From contig NZ_CP123448.1 of assembly GCF_030177895.1 (NCBI RefSeq), forward strand, positions 1,364,001 through 1,428,000: 64,000 nucleotides of DNA, in the 5' to 3' direction. Positions 8,148 to 52,028 of the stretch are shown piece after piece. The notes beneath the pieces were generated by a model that saw only the letters and a list, made by a program, of their open reading frames with translations, did not search any database and was not told where the DNA came from. The DNA comes from Kingella negevensis. GTDB taxonomy: Bacteria; Pseudomonadota; Gammaproteobacteria; Burkholderiales; Neisseriaceae. The translations under genes were made by a program, and so were the position numbers. Position 1 is the stretch's first letter, and every line of letters starts with the position of its first letter.

Positions 8148-8189
8148 TTGATATACATCAATAATGCTAAATAACTACAGGCGTATTAT
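8148..8189 (+). promoter_or_regulatory. FNR-dependent class II promoter of the arc operon
   Basis: TTGATATACATCAA at 8148-8161 matches the FNR consensus TTGAT-N4-ATCAA exactly. TATTAT at 8184-8189 is centred 32 bases downstream. This places the FNR site at -41.5 from a start near 8196, the standard position for anaerobic activation. The arcD ATG follows 150 bases later. Confidence 0.85.
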
Positions 8190-8341: not shown

Positions 8342-9763
8342 ATGTCTGACGCAAAATTGAGGCTGGGTTCACTCACAGCTCTGGTTATTGGTTCTATGAT
8401 TGGTGGTGGCATCTTCTCACTACCTCAAAATATGGCGGCTGGCGCAGAAGCTGGCGCAATCTTAATAGGCTGGGTGATTACCGCAATCGGTATGCTTTGC
8501 TTAGCCTTTGTCTTCCAAACTCTCGCAAACAGGAAACCGAATTTAGACGCTGGCGTTTATGCCTATGCCAAAGCAGGTTTCGGCAATTATCTTGGTTTTT
8601 CTTCCGCTTGGGGCTACTGGATTAGTGCATGGATTGGTAACGTAGGTTACTTGGTCTTGCTGTTTGGTACTCTGGGTTACTTCTTCCCTATCTTTGGCGA
8701 AGGGAACACATTTCCCGCTATTATCGCCGCCTCTGCTCTACTTTGGGCAACACACGCATTAGTGTTGCGTGGCATTAAAGAAGCCACTTTTGTGAATACC
8801 ATTATCACAATCGCCAAAGTCGTTCCCCTGATTACTTTTATCGCCATTGCCGTTATCGGCTTCAAAATGGATATTTTCACAACCGACTTTTGGGGGGCTA
8901 AAAACCCTGATTTAGGCAGCGTGATTGACCAAGTCAAAAGCATGATGTTGGTAACAGTGTGGGTATTCATCGGTATTGAAGGTGCGAGCTTGTATTCTGC
9001 ACGGGCTGAAAAACGCAGCGATGTGGGCAAAGCGACTATCTTAGGTTTTGCAGGTGTGTTGGCTTTATTGGTACTGGTAAACGTGTTGTCTGCTGGGATT
9101 ATGACGCAGCCTGAATTAGCTGCTCTGAGAAACCCTTCTACTGCTTATGTGTTAGAAAAAGTGGTTGGTTCTTGGGGTGCAGCGTTTATCTCAATCGGTT
9201 TAGTGGTTTCCCTGTTAGGCGCGTTCCTCTCTTGGGTGCTGTTCTGTAGTGAAACTTTATACGCAGCCTCTAAAGACGGCACGATGCCAGCGTTCTTCCA
9301 CAAAGAAAACAAAAATGGTGTGCCAGCTAACGCACTGTGGATTACCAACGGTTGCATTCAGTTATTCTTGATTATCACCCTCTTCTCAGCAGGGACTTAT
9401 CTGAAACTGATTTTGCTGGCGACTTCCATGATTTTAATTCCGTATCTGTTCTCAGCAGGTTATGCCGCTTTACTCACCGTTCGCAAAGAAACTTATGAAA
9501 ACGGCGACAAAGATTTAACCAAAGACAGCATCGTTGCTTGGGTTGGTACGATTTACGGGATTTGGCTGATTTACGCAGCAGGTTTGGAATACTTCCTGTT
9601 GTCCACTCTTCTCTATGCCCCAGGTACATTCATCTACGTCTGGGCGCGTAAAGAAAACAAAGAAGTAGCATTTACTACAGCTGAAAAAGTGATTGTTGCG
9701 CTGGTGTTTATCGGTGCTATCGCAGCGATTATTGGACTGGCTCAAGGTAAATTGAGTTTATAA
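8342..9763 (+). CDS. arcD: Arginine/ornithine antiporter
   Basis: An inner-membrane exchanger of the APC superfamily that imports arginine in exchange for ornithine, feeding the arginine deiminase pathway. The 473-residue product has about 12 hydrophobic helices. The APC N-terminal signature is LTALVIGSMIGGGIFSLPQN, and VWVFIGIEGASLYSARAEKR lies near 200-220, as in ArcD. A good Shine-Dalgarno (AAGGAG) lies 8 bases before the ATG. It is first of four same-strand genes arcD-arcA-arcB-arcC, with an FNR site upstream. Confidence 0.94.
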   Translation: MSDAKLRLGSLTALVIGSMIGGGIFSLPQNMAAGAEAGAILIGWVITAIGMLCLAFVFQTLANRKPNLDAGVYAYAKAGFGNYLGFSSAWGYWISAWIGNVGYLVLLFGTLGYFFPIFGEGNTFPAIIAASALLWATHALVLRGIKEATFVNTIITIAKVVPLITFIAIAVIGFKMDIFTTDFWGAKNPDLGSVIDQVKSMMLVTVWVFIGIEGASLYSARAEKRSDVGKATILGFAGVLALLVLVNVLSAGIMTQPELAALRNPSTAYVLEKVVGSWGAAFISIGLVVSLLGAFLSWVLFCSETLYAASKDGTMPAFFHKENKNGVPANALWITNGCIQLFLIITLFSAGTYLKLILLATSMILIPYLFSAGYAALLTVRKETYENGDKDLTKDSIVAWVGTIYGIWLIYAAGLEYFLLSTLLYAPGTFIYVWARKENKEVAFTTAEKVIVALVFIGAIAAIIGLAQGKLSL

Positions 9764-49891: not shown

Positions 49892-50031
49892 TAAAAGCGT
49901 TGCTGCTCGGATTCATTCATTTTGTTGTGAAAAAATGGGTTTAAAACTATTTGAGTGTAACGAAAAAAATGGGCTTTTGCAAACAATCAGGCAGCCTGAA
50001 AATCTTTCAGGCTGCCTGAAAACTAAAATGC

Positions 50032-50778
50032 TTAGTCTTGTAAAGTTTCAATCAAATCAATCATAAATTCTGCGTCTTCTTGCGACAGGGGTTCAAAGCC
50101 TTCTGGAATAGACAAATCTTCTAAAACCATTTTACCCGCTGGCGTTGTGTTGATTTTCACAAACGCATCGCGCAAGGTATCCGCATGTTCCGCATAATCT
50201 GGATGCAACAAAACCACATGGCTTAAATCGTTGATATTACTTTCCATCAAGACTTTCAGGCTTTTCTTAGTTGTTGCACTGAAATTTTTAAATGTGCTTG
50301 CTAAGAAAAAGGCAGCTTCTGCTTCACCTGCGATTAAGCGACGAGCAGATTCTTGAAATGTATCCGCATGCAGCCACTGAACAGAGTGTTCGGTGATGTT
50401 TGCAGATTCCAACAAACGCAAACCAATCAAACGAATATCGCGATTGTCTGTTACCAAAATACGGCTATCTGTTGGCAAATCATCAGAATGATTAAATTCG
50501 CTGCTTGCTTGTGCAGCAATCACCATCTCATCAGAATGATTAATCGGTTTCACCAATGGAATGTAGTTGTTATCACGCACCAATGTAGACGCGTCAAATG
50601 GGTTGGCATATACCAACGCAATTTGACCGCTACTTAATTGTTCATTTTGTTCATGGTAAGTGGCTGGCGTTTTTAAATGAATAGTTGAATCAGTTAAGCG
50701 TTGTAGCTGAGTGTTGAACATGTGCCAGCCCGCAAAATACTCTGGTGGAAAATCTGGGGCAATAAGAAAATTCAGCAT
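50032..50778 (-). CDS. PhnD-like substrate-binding protein without signal peptide
   Basis: 248 residues resembling periplasmic phosphate/phosphonate-binding proteins (PhnD/TauA fold). It has FLIAPDFPPEYFAGWHMFNT at the start, QIALVYANPFDAS near 52, DNRDIRLIGLRLLESANI near 110, and LIAGEAEAAFFLASTF near 148. No signal peptide or lipobox is present, so it is predicted to be cytoplasmic, unusual for this fold. AGGAATT lies before the ATG. It is the third gene of the PAS-roadblock-PhnD cluster and could be a soluble ligand sensor. Confidence 0.72.
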   Translation of the reverse strand: MLNFLIAPDFPPEYFAGWHMFNTQLQRLTDSTIHLKTPATYHEQNEQLSSGQIALVYANPFDASTLVRDNNYIPLVKPINHSDEMVIAAQASSEFNHSDDLPTDSRILVTDNRDIRLIGLRLLESANITEHSVQWLHADTFQESARRLIAGEAEAAFFLASTFKNFSATTKKSLKVLMESNINDLSHVVLLHPDYAEHADTLRDAFVKINTTPAGKMVLEDLSIPEGFEPLSQEDAEFMIDLIETLQD

Positions 50779-50936
50779 AAATAAAAATTCCTAATCATTA
50801 AATTTATTTTGATACAAAAACAGGTAGCAACCGTGTTATTTAGGTTTTGCAAGAAACCATTTTAACACGGCTTTAGAGTACTTATATCAACATTTATTTT
50901 AGAAAAATAAAGATTTAGCGTGATTTTACGTTAGCC

Positions 50937-51299
50937 TCAAGCAACTTGCCGAATTTGTGCAACAGCCTGACGAACGTGCAGCATAATCATGCCCAACTTC
51001 GCTTCTTTTCTAGCTGTAGTAACCAAAACTAAGTCATCTGTTGCTTGTACCAACAAGATAAAACCGTCTTGGCTTTCTACAATCAGTTGCTTCATTTGGC
51101 TACTGAGCAATTCTTTTGTAGTACGTTGCCCTAAAGAAAGCATAGCGGCTGACATACCGCCTACACGGTCTGCATCAGCATTACGCGGCAAAATACTGCA
51201 CAATGGAATCCCATCAACAGCAATCAGGGTTGAAGCAATAACATCGGTAGAATTATGGTGCAATTCTTCTAAGATAGGTTGAAACGTAGATGCGTTCAT
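50937..51299 (-). CDS. Roadblock/LC7-domain protein (MglB-like)
   Basis: A single-domain protein of 120 residues. STLIAVDGIPLCSILPRNAD and VGGMSAAMLSLGQRTTKELL match the roadblock fold, and GFILLVQATDDLVLVTTARK supplies later strands. Roadblock proteins often pair with small Ras-like GTPases (MglA type) as activators or form scaffold dimers. No GTPase gene is in this window. It follows the PAS gene by 80 bases on the same strand. Confidence 0.82.
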   Translation of the reverse strand: MNASTFQPILEELHHNSTDVIASTLIAVDGIPLCSILPRNADADRVGGMSAAMLSLGQRTTKELLSSQMKQLIVESQDGFILLVQATDDLVLVTTARKEAKLGMIMLHVRQAVAQIRQVA

Positions 51300-51379
51300 A
51301 ATAATGAGCCTTGTAAGGATTCAATAAATTGATTTAGGCTGAATTTAGACTCAACCTTTTAATAGAAATAAAAGAACAA

Positions 51380-51907
51380 TCAATCACTTTCAGCACATTC
51401 GGCTTTTAGTAATTGAGCGTACAGTTCTGTACATTCTTTGATTTTTTCTAAACTTGGTTTGCGGCGAACTGAAGTGTAGCCTTCCACAACACCGTTTCTT
51501 ATATTTGGAATAGCTGTTGCATAAACCCAGTAATATCCTCCATCTTTACGCAAATTTTTCACATAACCATGCCATTTTTCGCCGCGTTGCAGCGTTTCCC
51601 ATAAATCTTTGAACGCCACTTTAGGCATATCAGGATGGCGCAGAATGCTGTGAGGCGCACCAATCAATTCATCACGCGACCAGCCACTCATCGTAACAAA
51701 TGCTTCATTAGCATGCGTAATCACCCCATTAATATCCGTACGCGACGTAATCAAAGAACCATCAGGAAACGACGTTTCTTCCTGAGTGACATAAACGGGA
51801 TACGACTCACCTGTGTAAGTGGTCATCATATGTTCTTCATAAGGAACATTAGGAATAGGGAAATTAATTTGTACAGATTCCCCGTTATAGATACGTTCTG
51901 GTTTCAT
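51380..51907 (-). CDS. PAS-domain protein, Aer-type sensor without output domain
   Basis: 175 residues. Residues about 55-150 form a PAS domain with GVITHANEAFVTMSGWSRDE, then SILRHPDMPKVAFKDLWETL, GYVKNLRKDGGYYWVYA and EGYTSVRRKPS. This closely follows the FAD-binding PAS of the aerotaxis receptor Aer, including the R-H-P-D segment. There is no membrane segment, HAMP or methyl-accepting domain. It is probably a soluble redox or oxygen sensor acting through a partner. It is first gene of the cluster, with an FNR box upstream. AGGAAA precedes the ATG. Confidence 0.85.
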   Translation of the reverse strand: MKPERIYNGESVQINFPIPNVPYEEHMMTTYTGESYPVYVTQEETSFPDGSLITSRTDINGVITHANEAFVTMSGWSRDELIGAPHSILRHPDMPKVAFKDLWETLQRGEKWHGYVKNLRKDGGYYWVYATAIPNIRNGVVEGYTSVRRKPSLEKIKECTELYAQLLKAECAESD

Positions 51908-51986
51908 GATAAAAATTTCCTAAAGGACTGTTAAAAAATATAAATTACTATTAGAGTTTATTATCTAATATATAAAACAAATTAAA

Positions 51987-52028
51987 TTGATATACAAGTC
52001 GAATCCAGATTTGTTTGATTTACATCAA
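51987..52028 (-). promoter_or_regulatory. FNR-type promoter of the PAS-roadblock-PhnD cluster
   Basis: On the minus strand TTGATGTAAATCAA (52015-52028) matches TTGAT-N4-ATCAA exactly. The overlapping -10 candidates TATATC (51989-51994) and TATCAA (51987-51992) lie 30 to 32 bases downstream, which is class II spacing with a start near 51980. In the plus direction no good -10 lies at that spacing before lysS, so the cluster is the better target. Confidence 0.75.

Follow-up and report, generated by a model that had tools for sequence, protein, structure and literature searches.

A PAS, roadblock and PhnD-like gene trio of Kingella as a candidate sensor arm of an MglA-type GTPase switch

What system do three small genes of Kingella serve that lie side by side behind an FNR box and encode a PAS protein, a roadblock protein and a PhnD-like protein? 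The initial annotation of the window (the whole 64-kb stretch of DNA analysed) had read these same-strand genes as a signalling cluster, and domain matches bear out both their coordinates and their composition.

The three genes and their products

The trio lies on the minus strand and comprises the PAS gene (51907-51380; 175 aa; PAS_3, 8e-16), the roadblock gene (51299-50937; 120 aa; Robl_LC7, 2e-11) and the leaderless PhnD-like gene (50778-50032; 248 aa; Phosphonate-bd PF12974, 3e-33), with intergenic gaps of 80 and 158 bp. Among hairpins of the minus strand, the strongest, a terminator-like inverted repeat of 15 pairs, is positioned 3' of PhnD at 49987-50019 and presumably consists of two uptake-sequence-like copies; two weaker terminator-like hairpins on this strand (6 and 8 pairs) fall within the roadblock and PAS frames. 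Judged from this layout, the three genes are likely carried on a single transcript. Hydropathy averaged over 19 residues, for which the customary cut-off for a membrane segment is 1.6, gave no sign of such a segment in any of the three proteins: the largest means are 0.38 for PAS, 0.84 for PhnD and 1.82 for the roadblock protein, the last at residues 20-38 and within the Robl_LC7 match (residues 15-94).

The PAS protein is strongly similar to E. coli Aer (E 3e-47), with 65 of 131 positions identical to the Aer PAS domain (8dik). The five Aer side-chain contacts to FAD that were checked, taken from the excerpt of PMC9668731 used here (His53, Arg57, Trp70, Asn85 and Arg115), are all kept, as H86, R90, W103, N118 and R148, and these residues are invariant in 18 aligned PAS sequences, that of the window included. 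The FAD contacts are common to both proteins; unlike E. coli Aer, however, the Kingella protein has no HAMP, membrane or signalling domain and is made up of PAS only, as had been proposed.

A hidden signal peptide on the PhnD-like protein is ruled out, because an in-frame stop five codons upstream makes a revised, earlier start impossible, and the earlier claim of leaderlessness stands. The conserved APDF motif begins at residue 7 to 10 in 30 of 30 aligned members (30 of the 965 found), indicating that leaderlessness is a family trait, and the protein is predicted to be located in the cytoplasm. Its nearest folds are ArrX, AioX and PtxB (TM 0.78-0.82, identity 14-21%, ranks 1-11). The PF12974 substrate-binding fold is common to these proteins, PhnD and the Kingella protein, but the latter differs in having no leader, in its length of 248 aa and in a replaced loop motif. 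The stretch aligned with TDPMSFSGH of ArrX reads TDNRDIRLIG, in which N112 and D114 do not vary among 30 sequences, and this replacement makes phosphonate an unlikely ligand. The signal peptide and ABC transporter neighbours of a periplasmic PhnD are both missing: a Pfam sample of 18 neighbour clusters, 5 of them without any hit above the cut-off, contained no transporter family.

Linkage to an MglA-like GTPase in relatives

No GTPase gene was found in the 64-kb window. The full operon order in distant relatives is c3, c5, MglA-like GTPase, c4, roadblock, PAS and PhnD, where c3, c4 and c5 are our labels for accompanying genes. In a class-wide sample of 274 genomes, 11 bear PhnD, and 9 of these carry GTPase-c4-roadblock-PAS-PhnD on one strand; c3 and a c5-sized gene precede the GTPase in 7 of the 9 contiguous distant loci, and gene order links the trio to both GTPase and MglB in all 9. 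The operon is circularly permuted in Comamonadaceae and Moraxella. Among the best 80 of 304 loci, roadblock, PAS and PhnD occur together in 69, c3 in 69, c4 in 66 and the GTPase in 16. Co-occurrence of the trio therefore holds for most of these loci but is not fixed in Neisseriaceae, where the roadblock gene adjoins in 18 of 33 PhnD genomes as read from coordinates.

Genomes of the class sample that bear PhnD have the GTPase in 10 of 11 cases, compared with 35 of 263 others (P 6e-8, no kinship correction). PilT is present in 45/45 GTPase genomes versus 187/229 others (P 4e-4, no kinship correction), and the association of PhnD with PilT is uninformative (11/11 versus 232/274 overall). In Neisseriaceae, where PhnD occurs in 33 of 83 genomes and a GTPase match in 70 of 83, all 33 PhnD genomes have such a match compared with 37 of 50 others (Fisher P 0.001, no kinship correction); in one of the 33, a 1.1 Mb assembly (G073), the only match is of a weaker type. 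The set is split in this family, with GTPase-c4-roadblock at one locus and PAS-(roadblock)-PhnD at another, and the former had a separate locus in each of the 10 places read that carry the strong GTPase type. The tie to an MglA-like GTPase raised in the initial annotation is thus upheld by the shared operon of relatives and the 33 Neisseriaceae matches, but it is not obligatory: at E 1e-20 a matching GTPase is missing from 17 of 46 PhnD-bearing Moraxellaceae, none was found at 1e-5 in 2 of the 14 genomes first examined, and 1 of the 11 PhnD genomes of the class sample has none, so that the arm can exist without the GTPase.

In the 34 GTPases from relatives' loci (hits below 1e-50), the GTPGQ motif (G3) is present in 34 and the DAR motif (G5) in 31, one of the three misses being a truncated sequence. 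The G4 motif has TH for TK in 13 and reads TKMD in 6 (Neisseriaceae), with 15 outside the search pattern; the P-loop GPVGAGKT is invariant in the alignment. Comparison of the GTPase profile with solved structures gave no match at 1e-5. The c3 model is helical (mean pLDDT 83.7), and c3 stays unexplained because its pTM is 0.51 and its best structural match has an E of 0.53. The indications that c4 is a roadblock protein are weak, namely a Pfam E of 0.018 (below the cut-off), a profile comparison at E 0.28 and one solved roadblock at E 0.24. From its position, c4 probably corresponds to mglB-1 of Meng et al.

No described system of this composition had been known to the initial annotation. The system is not wholly undescribed, because Wuichet and Sogaard-Andersen (PMC4316618) have described its GTPase half as the Group 3 MglA system of beta/gamma-proteobacteria. 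In the portion of that work drawn on here, Group 3 has the same GTPGQ and DAR motifs as the relatives' GTPases, a c5-kind partner of unknown function with one or two MglB-like proteins, and a distribution in the same kinds of bacteria, including Neisseria. The same portion mentions neither FNR control nor a partner of the PAS, PhnD-like or c3 kind. A G4 motif other than [NT]KxD is a further mark of Group 3, and the Neisseriaceae GTPases differ in often having an ordinary TKxD there. Actinobacterial conservons and G protein systems, as far as the excerpted account goes (PMC13343842), likewise bring a sensor, a roadblock protein, a helper and a Ras-like GTPase together in one operon, with accessory proteins where the main sensor has no sensory domain. 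They combine a Group 2 GTPase with a histidine-kinase-like sensor, whereas the Kingella type has a bare PAS protein and a substrate-binding-protein (SBP)-fold protein, with no kinase.

The Kingella roadblock protein contains a Robl_LC7 domain with the Asp-Gly pair of Groups 2-5 (D29-G30) and an invariant G79. Roadblock proteins adjoining PAS-PhnD in relatives of Kingella group near the GTPase-linked MglB of the family in two trees, the second with moderate support. In Snodgrassella, an orphan mglB-3, a roadblock paralogue standing alone at a distance of about 1 Mb from mglA, has been described, and its G78R mutant shows altered pilus-dependent motility (Meng et al., PMC11112851); motility and host colonisation are the phenotype in the cited portion of that study and the only phenotype found for the system. 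At a Snodgrassella-like locus (L143) behind a perfect FNR box, the roadblock protein beside PAS-PhnD has Gly at position 78 and appears to be the published mglB-3. In the related genomes read, the apparent mglB-3 stands beside PAS and PhnD and behind FNR boxes, as in Kingella; the main text of PMC11112851, as available here, contains none of the words PAS, phosphonate and aerotaxis. The window's own roadblock differs in that it forms a long branch in the tree, as a separate duplicate and not an orthologue of mglB-3. The motility link that had been suggested is plausible in light of this published mutation in an apparent equivalent.

The FNR box upstream of the trio

The perfect FNR box TTGATTTACATCAA was recovered at 52015-52028 (no strand assigned), centred 114 bp upstream of the PAS start. 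The window contains two perfect boxes compared with 0.19 expected, and 3 of 100 shuffles contained as many. A -10-like TATCAA (4/6) at 51992-51987 is 32 bp from the box, centre to centre, a distance that we take to be class II spacing. Since the box sits between the divergent PAS and lysS genes, it cannot by itself tell which gene is served. FNR/Anr-type boxes occur upstream of the cluster in 29 of 109 distinct relatives, against a background of 17 in 1.04 Mb of mostly coding DNA, which points to the PAS side as the target; as looked for in an FNR regulon member, the predicted box is, at the sequence level, both upstream and repeated in relatives. The other 80 of the 109 distinct upstream regions, including all Psychrobacter-titled loci, have no FNR-type box. 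None was found before the GTPase half (0/47 starts), a soft negative because in 30 of the 47 the start is that of the GTPase gene, no c5 having been recognised ahead of it. No such gene is named in the accessible portion of the gonococcal FNR regulon study (PMC1802743).

Proposed role and competing explanations

With modest confidence, we favour reading the trio as the sensor/GAP arm, now detached, of a Group 3 MglA-type GTPase switch; this seven-gene switch probably tunes surface movement to oxygen. Low oxygen would, through FNR, raise the levels of the PAS, roadblock and PhnD-like proteins; the PAS protein would hold FAD and report the redox state of the respiratory chain, and a cytoplasmic small molecule would cause the PhnD-like protein to close. 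Both may act on the roadblock protein, an MglB paralogue, which in turn could alter GTP hydrolysis or localisation of an MglA presumably encoded elsewhere, either by direct action or through pairing with the coupled MglB. In its GTP form, MglA would then modulate type IV pili, and perhaps also transcription via c5, so that bacteria lacking Che arrays would adjust surface motility or adhesion to oxygen and metabolism. The broader proposition, that a flavin PAS and a leaderless SBP-like sensor plug directly into a Ras-like GTPase via a roadblock protein with no kinase or chemoreceptor, forming a distinct intracellular input class, oxygen-controlled at transcription, that directs the type IV pili of Neisseriaceae and of other beta/gamma-proteobacteria, is put forward tentatively, as possible but short of probable. 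The effect of oxygen on pilus speed in the gonococcus has been ascribed to proton motive force and not to direct oxygen sensing (excerpt of PMC3691265).

The same sensor arm and GTPase might instead have transcription as their output, with MglA acting via c5 and the pili not a direct target. We regard this as unlikely but worth weight: the ends of the c5-kind protein are predicted to be receiver-like and winged-helix-like (PMC4316618, cited portion), c5 or a c5-sized gene precedes the GTPase in contiguous loci, and c5 matches no Pfam family, but 33 of the best 80 of 304 loci hold roadblock, PAS, PhnD, c3 and c4 with no recognised c5, the window has none, and the Snodgrassella phenotype concerns motility and host colonisation. 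Next in likelihood, and also unlikely, is a GTPase-independent, oxygen-regulated sensor pair of PAS and PhnD, for which the roadblock protein would be no more than a scaffold for dimers or a neighbour acquired on more than one occasion. PAS-PhnD is found in 31 of the 33 PhnD Neisseriaceae and the two genes are adjacent in 31 of 31 having both, a constancy that the roadblock gene does not share, and the Moraxellaceae without a match, like the Psychrobacter-titled loci with no GTPase at the locus, would suit such a pair. The operons contiguous with the GTPase, the invariable GTPase match in PhnD-bearing Neisseriaceae and the position of the relatives' roadblock proteins in the trees argue for the GTPase-linked arm.

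A further reading, in which the PhnD-like protein works inside the cell as an enzyme or metabolite chaperone built on the SBP fold and its neighbours only regulate it, is very improbable. Leaderless enzymes of this fold exist (MqnA, THI5), and the replaced ArrX loop would accord with such a role; its nearest folds, however, are binding proteins, and beside the module genes no neighbour cluster occurs in more than 20 of the best 80 of 304 loci, the ten recurring neighbours matched by Pfam being of unrelated kinds (amino-acid catabolism, glycosyltransferases and similar), none widely common. A soluble aerotaxis receptor feeding CheA/CheW can be dismissed despite the strong likeness to the Aer PAS domain, as the protein has no HAMP or signalling domain and CheW was found at E 1e-5 in 0 of 83 Neisseriaceae compared with 7 of 14 control genomes; a chemotaxis output is rejected for the Neisseriaceae sampled.

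The inputs to Group 3 MglA GTPases are not stated in the portions of the literature cited here, and the operon, in its contiguous, permuted and split forms, points to two candidate sensors and to oxygen, acting through FNR, as a control signal. The unexplained orphan mglB-3 mutation of bee gut bacteria gains PAS and PhnD as likely partners. If our reading is true, the substrate-binding-protein fold gains a cytoplasmic use, and the adjustment of pili to oxygen in Neisseriaceae without Che arrays becomes a directly testable question.

The PAS, roadblock and PhnD-like genes

Three genes on the minus strand encode a PAS protein (51907-51380), an MglB-like roadblock protein (Robl_LC7; 51299-50937) and a PhnD-like protein (50778-50032). 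The initial annotation had placed them behind an FNR box; the Pfam family matches fit all three and the perfect box is present at 52015-52028. The trio is flanked by divergent lysS and a terC-like gene, both named from their translations. None of the three proteins looks membrane-bound, and the claim that the PhnD-like protein has no signal peptide held when revised starts were considered, as none allows one. The terminator-like hairpin 3' of the PhnD-like gene (49987-50019) is an inverted pair of AGGCAGCCTGAA-type sequences, which we take to be uptake sequences.

The PAS protein shares 99% identity with a K. negevensis record, which places the window in this species or a close relative. Among solved relatives, Escherichia coli Aer (E 3e-47) and 8dik, a structure of the Aer PAS domain, are nearest, and 65 of 131 aligned positions are identical to Aer. 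Aer His53, Arg57, Trp70, Asn85 and Arg115 are retained as H86, R90, W103, N118 and R148, while Met69 is replaced by Leu and Ser28 by Gly. The latter is one of three substitutions reported to stabilize the Aer PAS domain (PMC9668731); those at positions 65 and 99 are absent from the window protein. Because the five FAD contacts and the glycine are kept, and are invariant across 18 aligned PAS sequences including this one, the protein is likely to bind FAD.

A protein search with the PhnD-like protein passed 965 of 1663 candidates, and 30 sequences, the window's included, were aligned. All 30 begin directly in the mature fold, their APDF starting at residue 7 to 10; an acidic C-terminal stretch is conserved, with another tail in three. 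The predicted model (mean pLDDT 89.5) superimposes with a TM-score of about 0.8 on ArrX, AioX, PtxB and PhnD. Of these, the binding proteins ArrX and AioX feed arsenic-sensing kinases. The Ser-x-Ser-Gly type loop of ArrX is replaced by N-x-D in the PhnD-like family, both residues being invariant in the alignment, and the family is therefore likely to bind a different ligand.

The FNR pattern (TTGAYN4RTCAA) lies 5' of 29 of 109 distinct PhnD-ending clusters, which are interrelated and do not represent 29 independent events. The 29 comprise Snodgrassella-type and other Neisseriaceae, two Moraxella, several Comamonadaceae-type and one Pseudoxanthomonas cluster. The background in the same loci, mostly coding DNA, is 17 matches in 1.04 Mb (about 0.005 per 295 bp), and none of 100 shuffles of the region upstream of the trio in the window gave an equally good match. 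The pattern is absent from the other 80 clusters, including every Psychrobacter-titled locus, and from all 47 GTPase-anchored starts, the latter a soft negative. A second perfect box (8148-8161) lies 180 bp 5' of an amino-acid permease-like ORF (8342-9763), consistent with an arginine/ornithine-type exchanger under oxygen control, the exchanger function being guessed from the translation.

Gene order in relatives and the associated GTPase

A scan of genome contigs gave 304 PhnD-like relatives, of which the best 80 loci, a sample biased to close relatives, were kept. Roadblock, PAS and PhnD occur together in 69 of these 80 and PAS-PhnD without roadblock in eight; in three a contig end lies just 5' of PhnD. 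Two recurrent neighbour genes, c3 and c4, are found downstream of PhnD in 69 and 66 of the 80 loci, an MglA-like GTPase in 16, and another neighbour, c5, likewise in some. The commonest order is ROBL-PAS-PhnD-c3-c4 (33 loci), followed by the same set with c5 (14) and ROBL-PAS-PhnD-c3-c5-GTPase-c4 (11). One locus of the commonest order (L066, BMPS01000005.1) is titled Streptomyces cinereus; its roadblock groups with Moraxella atlantae, and the assembly is probably contaminated or carries a wrong label.

Of 274 genomes sampled across the class (cut-offs E 1e-50 for PhnD-like and 1e-20 for GTPase), 11 have the PhnD-like gene, 45 the GTPase and 10 both, and in nine of these ten a distance of 1.6 to 2.2 kb separates the two matches. 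All nine contiguous loci carry GTPase, c4, roadblock, PAS and PhnD on the same strand, and circularly permuting this arrangement gives the Comamonadaceae/Moraxella order. Seven have c3 upstream with a c5-sized gene between c3 and the GTPase, which the c5 profile recognizes in two; of the two without detected c3, one begins at a contig end. One of the nine has an additional gene between c4 and roadblock, and in one the PhnD match is split across two overlapping frames. The eleventh PhnD genome has c5, c4, roadblock, PAS and PhnD and lacks the GTPase. A locus with these five genes and no GTPase match, L171 (genome G383), shows a second, weaker PhnD-like match between c4 and roadblock.

The GTPase alignment shows the motifs GPVGAGKT, TTVAMDYG, GTPGQ and DAR. 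GTPGQ and DAR are given for Group 3 MglA by Wuichet and Sogaard-Andersen (PMC4316618), where this group is almost confined to beta/gamma-proteobacteria, Neisseria included, and comes with one or two MglB proteins as well as a conserved partner whose function is not known. Among 34 distinct matches with E <1e-50, GTPGQ is present in all and DAR in 31, one miss being a truncated sequence; for G4, 13 sequences deviate from TKxD and six have TKMD, and the pattern missed the motif in 15. Among the titles and abstract openings listed in literature searches, none reports PAS, PhnD-like and roadblock together or their union with MglA, although these genes may figure in the table of Group 3 neighbourhoods of PMC4316618.

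Motility and chemotaxis

According to Meng et al. (PMC11112851), S. communis has a single Group 3 mglA, two adjoining mglB genes and an orphan mglB-3 about 1 Mb away. The mglB-3 G78R mutation gave motile flares on soft agar, interpreted by the authors as a change in type IV pilus-dependent motility, and a honeybee-gut advantage over a background mutant without it; the main text does not use the words PAS, phosphonate or aerotaxis. L143 comes from a genome taken as Snodgrassella, and its roadblock, which precedes PAS and PhnD, is the one match of this kind in the genome that lies outside the GTPase locus. From its likely start this roadblock has 120 residues, with a glycine at 78 that corresponds to the invariant G79 of the window roadblock; its numbering fits only roughly that of the published mglB-3 (121 residues, nucleotide 235, equal to codon 79). 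PilT is present in 45 of 45 GTPase genomes of the class sample versus 187 of 229 others (P 4e-4, kinship ignored). CheW was found in none of 83 Neisseriaceae genomes, which rules out an Aer-type output via a Che array there.

A divided set in Neisseriaceae

Among the 83 Neisseriaceae genomes, matches were obtained for GTPase in 70 (E 1e-10), PhnD-like in 33 (1e-20), roadblock in 69 (1e-8) and PAS in 32 (1e-30). The 31 genomes that have both PAS and PhnD all carry the two genes next to each other, and 18 of the 33 PhnD genomes have a roadblock as a direct neighbour. A GTPase match is present in all 33 versus 37 of the 50 others. MglA-like GTPase matches number three per genome in G005, G072 and G074-G077 (1.5-2.2 Mb), and are elsewhere mostly single, with none in 13 of the 83; in G005 two further GTPases (L094, L097) lack c4. 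One locus (L117, in G076) has tandem PhnD-like genes 3' of a single PAS.

The initial annotation had suggested that the three genes may feed a GTPase switch, to be checked by a search for a linked MglA-like GTPase. Such linkage is present in the nine contiguous loci of the class sample; in Neisseriaceae the loci are split. Of 149 Moraxellaceae genomes, 46 have the PhnD-like gene, and the module GTPase (E <1e-80) occurs in 15, all PhnD-bearing; since 17 of the 46 have no GTPase match at E 1e-20, the sensor arm can exist without it. A PAS/PhnD sensor pair acting independently of any GTPase is an unlikely explanation, made slightly stronger by two points. The sole GTPase match of genome G073 (1.1 Mb assembly) is of a weaker type (E 4e-48), and oxygen-dependent pilus speed in the gonococcus has been attributed to proton motive force (PMC3691265), so that oxygen effects on pili need not run through such a sensor. 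The same points slightly weaken the reading that we somewhat favour, in which the trio would serve Group 3 MglA, a GTPase system itself already known (PMC4316618), as a sensory arm.

The window roadblock groups with those of Wielerella-, Conchiformibius- and Alysiella-type loci (support 100/98 in a 36-row tree and 87/98 in a 48-row tree). It lies close to the family's GTPase-linked MglB proteins and outside the orphan clade of Snodgrassella type (100/100, 48-row tree); the trees have long branches and an uncertain root. At L001 (Alysiella crassa) and L102/L149 (Wielerella-like) the order is PAS-ROBL-PAS-PhnD, whereas the window carries the upstream PAS only. The roadblock placements suggest that MglB paralogues may have joined PAS-PhnD more than once. 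In all ten Neisseriaceae places read, the strong-type GTPase sits at a separate GTPase-c4-roadblock locus. With this group and PAS-PhnD at separate loci, the set is split in Neisseriaceae, and the Kingella trio would thus represent its sensor half.
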